From positions 1 to 64,000 of the forward strand of contig JAPPII010000115.1 of the NCBI GenBank assembly GCA_028820845.1: a DNA stretch of 64,000 bases, in the 5' to 3' direction. The position numbers and the translations under genes are program-made. The notes under the pieces are model-generated. The model was given only the letters and a program-made list of their open reading frames with translations. It had not been told where the DNA came from and did no database searches. This stretch comes from Candidatus Poribacteria bacterium (GTDB lineage: Bacteria > Poribacteria > WGA-4E > WGA-3G). This document shows, piece after piece, positions 32,338 to 36,363 of the stretch. Each line of letters opens with the position of its first letter. Position 1 is the first letter of the stretch.

Positions 32338-32493
32338 TAGCAAAATTTATTGGTGCGTTTTCTTAAGGCTGAATAGCAAGATGACGAAATCCTGGAACCT
32401 TCTTCAACGAGGTGTCTCGGTGAGGTTGGGAAATCCTGTTAATGATGCAATAAATGGATGGGAACTGGAAAAGCAAGGATATAAAACGAAAAC

Positions 32494-32568
32494 GGTGCGG
32501 TTACAAACCGCACCTACCTATTTTAAAGGAACTTCAGGATACGACTGGCAAGGTTAGGAAACCTCGCC
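32494..32568. repeat. Two dispersed hairpin repeats
   Basis: GTGCGGTT (32495-32502) with AACCGCAC (32506-32513), identical in stem to the one at 21112-21130; and GGCAAGGTT (32548-32556) with AACCTCGCC (32560-32568), a one-mismatch relative of the one at 9779-9800. They lie downstream of the HxG dioxygenase gene. Confidence 0.6.
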
Positions 32569-32644
32569 AGCGGTGCGTGAGTTTTCGCTTATAGTGTAAA
32601 CTTATTTTTCATATCTACTATAAAATGGGTTGTATTTCCGTCAA

Positions 32645-33040
32645 CGGTACCCACACGCTAAAGCGTGGGGAAACCTGTGCTTCCTCGCAGTCTGCGGTTT
32701 CCTCTAAGAGTCCACCGTCTTACGTCTGCTCCACTTAGGGCAGCCGAGCCTGCCCGTTTAGAATAGAATTGGGGGAACACACGCAGTTGGCTGGAATTCT
32801 ACTCCTCTTGCTACGTCGGTGTGTTCCGATATACTTTTTAGGTGATATGGACACCAAACACTTTTGACTACTTTCCACGGTAGTGGACACCACCTCTACA
32901 GAGAGTAGAGGGTGGAAACGGTGTCCAAGTGTCTGGTAATATTATACTACATTTTTAGGTGAATGTCAAATCTTTTTTTCACACAACCATAGGCGGTGTC
33001 TACATCCCCGACCTAAAGGACGGGGGTTTGACACCGAAGA
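32645..33040. mobile_element. Structured element with IS200/IS605-like end hairpins, no transposase
   Basis: About 400 bases with no convincing gene. The left end has CACGC-TAAA-GCGTG (32654-32667); the right end has CCCCGACC-TAAA-GGACGGGG (33006-33025), enclosed by CGGTGTC (32994-33000) and GACACCG (33030-33036). Both end hairpins have a TAAA loop, as in IS200/IS605 ends. Between them are GGAAACC/GGTTTCC (32669-32702), GGGCAG/CTGCCC (32738-32755), a 9-bp GGAACACAC/GTGTGTTCC (32774-32827), GGACACC/GGTGTCC (32849 or 32885 with 32920-32926), and CTCTAC/GTAGAG (about 32893-32909). It could be a palindrome-associated non-autonomous transposon, an orphan omega/HEARO-like guide RNA, or another structured RNA. 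Confidence 0.6.
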
Positions 33041-33091
33041 TTATGCTAAATAGCGTATATCAAATTACTGATAATTCACAGAAAAATTGTA

Positions 33092-33246: not shown

Positions 33247-36200
33247 ATGAACATCCTCAATGAATTAAACGAAAAACAGAGAGAAGCAGTAACACATAAA
33301 AATGGTCCACTGCTCGTCATCGCGGGTCCCGGCACGGGAAAAACAAAAGTCATTACACACCGTATTGCCTACTTGATTCGTGAACACAATATTAAACCTG
33401 AAAACATCCTCGCAATTACCTTTACAAACAAAGCCGCGGAGGAGATGCAGGAACGCATCAATAGTGAAATCGGTGAACCACACGGATCCAGCGTTAAGGC
33501 TTGCACCTTCCATGCATTTTGCGTCAAAGTGCTCCGAAAACATGCAACACAAATCGGACTGAGCGAAAACTTCACTATCTTTGATCAAGAGTTCCAAGAC
33601 GAGATTCTAACGGAAAGCGTCCGCGAGTTAAGCCTTAACCCTGACGACTATCCACCATGGCTGCTGCGCAACGTCATCAGTGATGCCAAATGTAAATTAC
33701 AGAATCCTGTCGATGCAGCGGATACATTGGATATTTACGAGTCCGGAACCATTGAAAACATCCGAAGTGTCCTGCAAAGCTATCAGGATAAACTCGACGA
33801 ATACGATGCGCTTGATTTCGACGATCTCCTTGTGAAAACCGTCGAACTGCTTGAACGGGTAGCAGAGGTCCGAGAAGCCTATCGTCGGGAGATCTCATAC
33901 ATCCTTGTTGATGAATACCACGATGTGAACAACGTACAATATCGTTTACTCCAACTGCTCTGTCCACCACCGGAGGGGAACCTGATGGTCGTCGCTGACG
34001 AAGATCAGGCGATCTATAGTTGGCGTGGGTCGAATCCACAGTATATTGAGGATTTCAAAATCGACTTCAACCCAGAGACCCTCACACTGGACGATCACTA
34101 CCGATGCAGTGAGAAGATTTTGCGCGCCGCAGAGGAAGTCATTTCTAAAAACATAGAACGACAAAAACAGCATACCCTCAGAACCCACAAAGATGTCGGA
34201 CGCGACATTTTCCACTATACCTTCGATACTCCTGTAGCAGAAGCACTCGGTGTCATTGATGTTATCAGGAAATTAGTAGAACAACGCAACTACTCTTATC
34301 GCGATATAGCGATCTTTTACCGAACACATAGACTCGCAGACGTGTTGGCTGAGCAGCTCCTACGTGCCAACATCCAATTTCAACGCGTTCAACCGATGAA
34401 TTCCTTTGGAGAGGGAAATAGTAAGAGCATTCTCGCCTATCTCCGTTTTATCCAGTGGCAACTTCCACAAGATTTGGAACGCGCCATCAATTTTCCTGAG
34501 ACTTGCATTGACGATCTGACATGGGTGCGCCTTAAGTGGCTCGCACAACGCGAACATATTGCGTTCATCGAACTGCTGAAAAATATCGAGGCATATCCAC
34601 AGGATGTCGGTCCCTTGACCCGCCGAAATGTGCGTCAGTTCTGGACGCAACTTGAGGATTTATCAACTGAAATCGAAGGAGAGGCGGTTGATAAGATAAT
34701 TCTCAAACTCTTTGACGCGTTGGAACAGTCTCGTTCTGCCTACCGCGCTGAAGAGTTGGAAGTCATCGAAAGGCAACCTGAACTGTCGAATCTCACAACG
34801 GCGCAAGATGTTCTCTATAGTGCCATCGACCTCGATGAACCGATTCAGATTACTGCCAGTCATGGGATTGACGAATACTGCGCGGCACACATTATCCACC
34901 AGACACTTGAAACCTATCTGGATCACACAGCGCAACTTCAATTCCTACCTCCTGATGAAAACGATGTGACACAGATGGCAAATGGAGTCCACATACTCAT
35001 CGGCGATTTTTCGGAAATTGGTGAAAGTGGGAGAGACGCGCGGACAATCCTGATTGGAACAGCGGATGTAATAGATACAGATGCGATTCATCTTGGAACT
35101 GAAGGGGTTCGGAGTCTCGCAGCCCTCAAACTTTGCCAACGGCTTATCAACCGTTTTGAAAGTCCGAACATGGCGGATATGGTTGTCTACGATTTGGAAA
35201 CAACTGGCATCAATCCAAAAACGGCAGAGATTGTTGAAATCGCTGCACAACGACTCAGCGCAATAGGCAGCGAAGTCGAACGGTTTCATAGTTTGGTAAA
35301 ACCGCCGGGTGGTCACATTCCACGTGCCGCCACGCGCATTCACAGAATTGACGCAGAAACAGTCAAAGATTCCCCAGGAATTGAAATCGTTTTGCCGGAA
35401 CTCATGGGGTTCCTCCAAGATCGGATCTTGATTGGGCACAACGTAGCGGAATACGATAATCCCATCCTCGCGCGGGACCTCAGACGATATTTGAGTCGGG
35501 ATTTGTCCGCTCCCCATTACGATACACTCGCCACAGCGCGTCGGCTTTTCCCGCGACAACGGTGTAGCATGGGAGCACTCGCCGAAAAATTTGGAATCGA
35601 ACACGGTCGCCTACACGGTGCTTTGGAGGACGTTGAGGTCAATCGAGAAATCTTTAAAGAACTCATCAAAATTGATGCTTACAAACGCGAGGTAAAATCT
35701 CTGACTGAACTCCTACCTCTCGTGGGTATCGGTATCCTCGCCAAAACTGGCGCATCACCTACTAAGGAAACCTTAACTGAAACGGATGCGTTTCTCAATG
35801 CTGCGAAACGTGTCGTACAGATGCACGACCCTAAATTGCCAGATCGCTTCCCGCTTGAAGCAGCGGAGGCGGAACAGGCAACAGCCTATATGGAAGAATT
35901 ACAGGATGTCCCGCCTCCTGAGTTTCCGGAAGACCTTGCGTGGCGACAACGGCGTATTCAGTTTATGAACGCTGTGCTTCATTTTGAATCCATGAGTGAT
36001 ACGAATAGACTCACCGATTTCTTAGATTATCAAAAGTTGCTCACGAATGTCGATGAACTTGACGACACGACCGAACAACTGACGTTAATGACGTTGCACG
36101 CAGCGAAGGGAACAGAATTTCCGATCGTTATCATTATTGGTATGGAGGAGGGGAGTTTTCCGATGTGGCGGCAGGATATTACAGAAGCGGAACTTGAGGA

Positions 36201-36363
36201 GGAGCGTCGTCTTTTCTATGTCGGTATGACCCGGGCGCAAGCGCAGCTTTATCTGAGTTCTGTCACCTATCGTTTTGGGGACAGGGATCGCGCGTCGTCA
36301 ATGTTTGTCAGGGAGATACCATCTAATTATGTGATTAGATGGAGTCCACAGCGCAGGAGATAG
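33247..36363 (+). CDS. UvrD/Rep-type helicase with an inserted DnaQ-like 3'-5' exonuclease
   Basis: A 1038-residue product. Helicase motif I AGPGTGKT is at 26-33, motif II and neighbours in ILVDEYHDVNNVQYRLLQ and VVADEDQAIYSWRGSNPQY (about 220-265). After a middle of about 350 residues comes a DEDDh exonuclease: VYDLETTGINPKTAEIVEIA (about 645-664), LIGHNVAEYDNPILARDL (about 730) and HGRLHGALEDVEVN (about 790). Helicase motifs V and VI follow: LMTLHAAKGTEFPIVIIIG (about 948) and EERRLFYVGMTRAQ (about 990). So the nuclease is inserted within helicase domain 2 rather than added at an end. It would unwind and trim DNA in repair. GGAGG precedes the ATG. Confidence 0.9.
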   Translation: MNILNELNEKQREAVTHKNGPLLVIAGPGTGKTKVITHRIAYLIREHNIKPENILAITFTNKAAEEMQERINSEIGEPHGSSVKACTFHAFCVKVLRKHATQIGLSENFTIFDQEFQDEILTESVRELSLNPDDYPPWLLRNVISDAKCKLQNPVDAADTLDIYESGTIENIRSVLQSYQDKLDEYDALDFDDLLVKTVELLERVAEVREAYRREISYILVDEYHDVNNVQYRLLQLLCPPPEGNLMVVADEDQAIYSWRGSNPQYIEDFKIDFNPETLTLDDHYRCSEKILRAAEEVISKNIERQKQHTLRTHKDVGRDIFHYTFDTPVAEALGVIDVIRKLVEQRNYSYRDIAIFYRTHRLADVLAEQLLRANIQFQRVQPMNSFGEGNSKSILAYLRFIQWQLPQDLERAINFPETCIDDLTWVRLKWLAQREHIAFIELLKNIEAYPQDVGPLTRRNVRQFWTQLEDLSTEIEGEAVDKIILKLFDALEQSRSAYRAEELEVIERQPELSNLTTAQDVLYSAIDLDEPIQITASHGIDEYCAAHIIHQTLETYLDHTAQLQFLPPDENDVTQMANGVHILIGDFSEIGESGRDARTILIGTADVIDTDAIHLGTEGVRSLAALKLCQRLINRFESPNMADMVVYDLETTGINPKTAEIVEIAAQRLSAIGSEVERFHSLVKPPGGHIPRAATRIHRIDAETVKDSPGIEIVLPELMGFLQDRILIGHNVAEYDNPILARDLRRYLSRDLSAPHYDTLATARRLFPRQRCSMGALAEKFGIEHGRLHGALEDVEVNREIFKELIKIDAYKREVKSLTELLPLVGIGILAKTGASPTKETLTETDAFLNAAKRVVQMHDPKLPDRFPLEAAEAEQATAYMEELQDVPPPEFPEDLAWRQRRIQFMNAVLHFESMSDTNRLTDFLDYQKLLTNVDELDDTTEQLTLMTLHAAKGTEFPIVIIIGMEEGSFPMWRQDITEAELEEERRLFYVGMTRAQAQLYLSSVTYRFGDRDRASSMFVREIPSNYVIRWSPQRRR

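Follow-up and report, generated by a model that had tools for sequence, protein, structure and literature searches.

The 406-bp element described here, from the sponge-symbiont bacterium Candidatus Poribacteria, is mobile and non-coding, carries its own promoter, is under selection for RNA structure, and has the omega-RNA and the ends of TnpB elements. It is likely to be a non-autonomous, RNA-only member of IS200/IS605 with a transcript that is used by a TnpB encoded elsewhere; we infer both this use in trans and the function of the structured leader that opens the transcript. The features of the element are given below in coordinates of the window, that is, the whole stretch of 64,000 nucleotides that was analysed.

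32640 to 33045, minus strand: the complete non-autonomous element of IS200/IS605 type (406 bp), running from its left end at 33045 to its right end at 32640, delimited by an identical second copy and an empty site in a relative (G047)
33046 to 33050, minus strand: target motif (TAM) TTTAG, which adjoins the left end and stays there, from the empty site in G047
32994 to 33036, minus strand: left-end hairpin CGGTGTC..CCTAAAGG..GACACCG, written CGGTGTCAAACCCCCGTCCTTTAGGTCGGGGATGTAGACACCG, with a TAAA loop; the TnpB element L009 has a left end of 93% identity
32964 to 32969, minus strand: -35 box TTGACA, a sequence match to the consensus
32941 to 32946, minus strand: -10 box TATAAT, 17-nt spacer, 12 of 12 consensus matches together with the -35 box
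32841 to 32935, minus strand: leader RNA of about 95 nt, a three-way junction with a pseudoknot, a fold it has in common with the 5' leaders of tnpB genes; it matches model R2 at 98.4 bits, with the window being part of the R2 seed
32774 to 32827, minus strand: middle hairpin domain, class A, which sits between leader and omega-RNA in TnpB-less copies
32738 to 32756, minus strand: hairpin GGGCAGGCTCGGCTGCCC, remnant of the tnpB 3' end, the equivalent of which in L009 and L010 codes for ..RAGLAA-stop
32640 to 32759, minus strand: omega-RNA scaffold region (tnpB 3' end and right end), 83% identical over about 120 nt to the TnpB elements L009 and L010, with covariation in 21 TnpB-less copies
32650 to 32670, minus strand: right-end hairpin CCCACACGCTAAAGCGTGGGG (also written CCCCACGCTTTAGCGTGTGGG), with a TAAA loop, from the covariation alignment of TnpB-less copies
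32620 to 32639, minus strand: predicted guide GGAAATACAACCCATTTTAT, the flank of the right end, directly past the conserved terminus ..GAC/..CAC, by analogy to TnpB systems

When copies and empty sites are compared, the true borders fall 5 bases past the limits given in an initial annotation on either side. That annotation had described a gene-free stretch of about 400 bases with a TAAA-loop hairpin at each end and a chain of at least six hairpins inside; both end hairpins are present, the left-end one doubly nested as reported, and the element contains at least six perfect stems of 5-9 bp. The element has no TnpA, TnpB or IscB frame, again as the annotation had it.

The own genome contains 27 partial matches to the element. 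A second, 100% identical copy resides at an unrelated locus between other flanks, intact in a genome of the same species (G030, contig C371) and split in the own genome between the end of contig C24 and the start of contig C119. In the relative G047, the orthologous site is empty, with CTATTTAG directly followed by AGAAATACAAC; in the window, the filled site reads, on the minus strand, CTATTTAG, then the element (CATAATC...GTTGAC), then GGAAATACAAC. A related element (L132) has an empty site in G051, and both empty sites show insertion 3' of TTTAG or TTTAT with no target duplication. Such insertion 3' of a short motif is a trait of IS200/IS605, as are the imperfect palindromes near the ends and the lack of terminal inverted repeats, and the element also has the traits of PATEs and other non-autonomous IS605 derivatives, namely, absence of a transposase gene, ends in common with protein-coding relatives, and several copies. 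The non-autonomous palindrome-associated transposon suggested in the initial annotation is thus a mobile, TnpB-less element of the IS200/IS605 type. That suggestion had been made to depend on homologous copies with conserved ends and on covariation in the stems; many such copies were found, and the covariation is strong.

The search for copies linked to TnpB, also proposed at the outset, identified two 1.4-kb elements in the same genome (L009 and L010) in which both ends of the window element flank an intact TnpB gene, with the Pfam domains OrfB_IS605 and Cas12f1-like_TNB and an NCBIfam guided_TnpB match above the cut-off. The right part of the window element corresponds to the last tnpB codons and the omega-RNA region of these relatives. 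It displays the traits of a TnpB omega-RNA: the scaffold overlaps the tnpB 3' end and the right end, the structure is conserved, and the guide is the flank. In 21 TnpB-less copies, the omega-RNA covaries, with both sides changed in 7 of 13 predicted pairs. The 30 best TnpB-less loci have no TnpB match within 1.5 kb, and an open reading frame of at least 100 aa starts within about 30 nt past the leader in none of 34 TnpB-less copies vs 36 of 41 tnpB leaders. The host genome encodes 24 TnpB genes and has four Y1_Tnp matches above the family cut-off (the weakest at 24.9 bits, the cut-off being 23); no TTTAG-type hairpins were found near its Y1 genes and no TnpA gene is linked to the element ends. 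Elsewhere (L052, positions 1342-2139, contig C25 of G000), a Y1 TnpA gene lies between two 77-nt direct repeats (80% identical) beside a TnpB element.

The functional strand of the element, not noticed in the initial annotation, is the minus strand. A consensus promoter lies just inside the left end and is directed toward the right end; 28 of 34 TnpB-less copies reach a promoter score of 10 of 12 or more, compared with 1.6% of shuffles. The leader fold begins 4-6 nt past the -10 box, and the transcript is predicted to start at about helix a of the leader. The 298-nt minus-strand transcript has a folding energy of -106.1 kcal/mol, vs -88.1 +/- 5.2 for dinucleotide shuffles (z -3.5; 0 of 200 shuffles as low). 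The typical TnpB-less element consists of left-end hairpin, promoter, leader, middle domain, omega-RNA, right-end hairpin and flank, in this order. A link to the neighbouring helicase gene, upstream of which the initial annotation had placed the element, was not supported: the promoter reads away from that gene, and G047 has the gene without the element. The gene (33247-36363) encodes a 1038-aa helicase of the UvrD type in which an RNase T/DnaQ-like exonuclease domain (residues 646-803) splits UvrD_C in two, an unusual domain order.

The leader comprises the following parts.

32927 to 32932, minus strand: 5' strand of helix a, ACACTT, with the 3' strand a'1 at 32858-32863; covariation
32920 to 32926, minus strand: 5' strand of helix b, GGACACC, with the 3' strand at 32885-32891; covariation
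32912 to 32918, minus strand: pseudoknot strand c, TTTCCAC, with the partner c', GTGGAAA, at 32872-32878; 7 bp; covariation
32893 to 32911, minus strand: hairpin d, CCTCTAC-TCTCT-GTAGAGG; covariation
32867 to 32884, minus strand: hairpin e, ACTAC..GTAGT, the loop of which carries pseudoknot strand c'; covariation
32841 to 32855, minus strand: hairpin f, GGTG-TCCATAT-CACC, which occupies the place of the lost tnpB start codon

The strands follow the order a-b-c-d-d'-b'-e-c'-e'-a'1-a'2, where c adjoins b and its pairing partner c' is carried by the loop of hairpin e. This pseudoknot (32912-32918 with 32872-32878), which nested folding cannot show and which the initial annotation had missed, is the strongest feature of the element. 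The same fold, with very different sequences, lies between a consensus promoter and the start codon of nearly all 24 TnpB genes of the host genome, where it stops just short of the start codon. One tnpB-linked leader (L037, contig C77 of G000) keeps the a-b-c-d-e and pseudoknot order with nearly no shared sequence and was missed by model R1.

With seeds picked by eye among related sequences and shuffles that ignore relatedness, 96.6% of cells are paired in 18 tnpB leaders of the host genome, vs 81.3 +/- 1.0 in shuffles, and both sides changed in 17 of 30 pairs; 12 TnpB-less leaders are 97.9% paired. Alignments A7 and A8 favour the nested helices, to which they had been fitted, and the pseudoknot, a'2 and hairpin f were absent from the models, so that support for these is less biased: pseudoknot pairing amounts to 96.1% in 41 tnpB leaders (64.0% when shuffled) and 99.1% in 33 TnpB-less leaders (76.9% when shuffled). 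Selection on the fold therefore goes on without tnpB. In tnpB leaders, strand a pairs about equally well with the tandem copies a'1 (97.1%) and a'2 (93.8%), with a'2 pairing in shuffles at 81.8%, maximum 86.0%. Hairpin f is present in 26 of 31 TnpB-less copies vs 1 of 40 tnpB leaders, the shuffles giving 24%; its being rarer in tnpB mRNAs than in shuffles would fit a need for the second a' copy to remain available beside the start codon. The leader fold is an RNA structure with no Rfam match, either in the window or in the scanned elements.

Because a loose structural descriptor returned mostly chance matches, covariance models were used to trace distribution. The leader model has matches in 47 of 59 genomes of the family, with up to 47 copies per genome, and, within the phylum but outside the family, in G076 only. 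One exact leader pattern was compared with 84,980 species, and the matches listed (80 of 104 stretches) all belong to Candidatus Poribacteria, species outside Poribacteria being covered by that pattern alone. In IMG/VR, the leader pattern occurs on one 54-kb contig only, and the middle-domain pattern has no match; this contig (IMGVR_UViG_3300033059_000057; L294/L295) has two tnpB-leader matches and may be poribacterial, not viral. The TnpB-less family of the window copy was seen with model R2 in 37 of 58 genomes, a count in which a few weak matches are tnpB leaders and some genomes add only such matches. The middle domains of TnpB-less copies are of two types, each with the ends of a different TnpB family, and the leaders of both types are alike, suggesting that ends have been exchanged. 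Some TnpB-less copies (L167, L173, L174/L175) are without a recognisable right end, so not all can act as guide-RNA elements. Another TnpB-less locus (L139/L169, contig C43 of G046) keeps the leader, but its interior differs (GGATTGAAACAATCC...) and the common type of omega-RNA is absent.

Among described systems, the IS1341-type (TnpB-only) IS200/IS605 elements resemble the window element in their subterminal end hairpins, insertion 3' of a short motif without duplication, and omega-RNA at the tnpB 3' end and right end with a flank-derived guide. Unlike them, the window element has no tnpB, with a small structured domain in place of the open reading frame, and its leader fold is not known in described members in the literature searched. 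PATEs and IS605-type MITEs are likewise short and non-coding, share ends with autonomous elements and are presumably moved in trans, but the window element is not ends-only: it has its own promoter and a conserved RNA of about 300 nt with an omega-RNA scaffold. The omega-RNA or reRNA of TnpB, which arises when TnpB trims its own mRNA at the 5' side, is alike in position and flank-derived guide (PMC8612924, PMC10278001), whereas the precursor in the window is, instead of a tnpB mRNA, a non-coding transcript of its own that includes a leader and a middle domain. The IS605-orfB-I RNA (RF03065) and HEARO (RF02033) are also structured RNAs tied to IS605-type genes; neither reached the gathering score on any scanned element, and RF03065 had no match even with E up to 5, 5 and 3 in three scans. 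HEARO, the omega-RNA of IscB, was rejected, with no match in the window, no IscB frame in the element, and a sub-threshold match in one other locus (L047) at E 1.7, the level of chance. Of the stand-alone guide-type RNA offered in the initial annotation, a TnpB-type omega-RNA with a flank-derived guide survives, and the HEARO/IscB variant, lacking any Rfam match, does not. A group I intron or IStron was rejected for want of Rfam matches to intron core models, and an HDV-like or other self-cleaving ribozyme, considered from the b-c-d-b'-c' order, was rejected as c' is held within the loop of a hairpin of its own, e, and Rfam returned nothing. The literature searched, which was mostly non-subscription, describes neither a structured tnpB leader nor TnpB-less omega-RNA elements from Poribacteria.

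Under the mechanism we propose, transcription would begin at helix a, traverse the leader, the middle domain and the omega-RNA scaffold, and continue into the flank, the putative guide, and an intact TnpB from another locus would bind and trim the transcript, by analogy with characterized systems (PMC8612924, PMC10278001). The RNP would cut the empty donor site (TTTAG plus guide; TTTAG-GGAAATACAACCC) once the element has left, and repair of the cut would restore the element, which would thus be retained. A Y1 transposase would act on the end hairpins and move the element. Donor-site cutting and repair-driven retention have been proposed for TnpB elements, and it is by analogy to other TnpB systems that both omega-RNA use in trans and donor cutting are suggested here. 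The leader is most likely a module that is recognised by TnpB or a host factor, or a protector of the 5' end; its retention in both contexts, tnpB mRNAs and TnpB-less RNAs, is best explained by a shared TnpB-related role. In tnpB mRNAs, the last leader strand occurs in two tandem copies before the start codon, an arrangement that would suit bistable control of tnpB translation, and in TnpB-less RNA the second a' copy would be locked in hairpin f, which replaces the start codon.

The RNA could instead have a host or element role unrelated to TnpB guiding, for example, as a regulatory RNA that titrates TnpB or as a regulator of tnpB translation. Such a role would fit the leader common to tnpB mRNAs and TnpB-less RNAs, which might compete for a leader-binding factor, and the copies without a clear right end (L167, L173, L174), but we regard it as improbable given that most copies keep the full omega-RNA scaffold and a precise right-end terminus beside the flank, neither of which a titration RNA needs. 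A plain PATE or MITE, in which only the end hairpins matter, with TnpA acting in trans, and the interior is what is left of a tnpB element in decay, is already disfavoured and has quite a low probability. Ends in common with TnpB elements, absence of TnpB, the occurrence of ends-only elements in other IS605 genomes (PMC7290912), and a local copy (L015) that has the ends and no leader all agree with it; the interior of TnpB-less copies, however, is conserved and covaries across species, and a promoter, middle domain and omega-RNA fold that are kept, along with a hairpin that replaces the start codon, are not expected of a remnant. At paired positions, G-U cells far exceed A-C cells, 52 vs 7 in TnpB-less copies and 40 vs 11 in tnpB leaders, which indicates that the selected molecule is RNA of the tnpB strand (minus in the window). 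Although IS200/IS605 transposition employs single-stranded DNA hairpins and mobile copies without tnpB retain the leader, it is very unlikely that the leader works as DNA, through structure in single-stranded transposition intermediates, given this G-U excess, as RNA on the tnpB strand predicts, and a fold that begins 4-6 nt past the -10 box and reaches almost to the start codon in tnpB genes.

Beyond the preferred reading, an RNA-only element used by TnpB in trans, we tentatively consider a broader scenario that is possible, if somewhat short of an even chance. The leader would be a new RNA family coupling RNA to TnpB, for loading, autoregulation or both, and the TnpB-less elements would be an old lineage of RNA-only transposons that use the leader and their own guide to exploit TnpBs of several families, swapping ends with the residents. 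If TnpB-less elements do carry their own promoter, guide RNA and the shared leader, RNA-guided nucleases serve RNA-only passengers, and nature would here supply guide RNAs in trans to TnpB. With the leader, a concrete and testable RNA fold is available ahead of tnpB genes, where little is known of how TnpB expression is controlled; it might also be put to use in engineering TnpB.

Two other repeats were noted. A sequence of about 55 bp (L127, positions 2225-2279) recurs about 35 times in the own genome, with identities of 93-100%, and is probably a separate high-copy miniature element. Beside the window element, at 32493-32520, lies a palindromic CGGTGCGGTT-aca-AACCGCACC repeat; similar GGTGCGGTTAGAAACCGCACC copies near two other loci (L046 and L053) make it look like another small repeat family.
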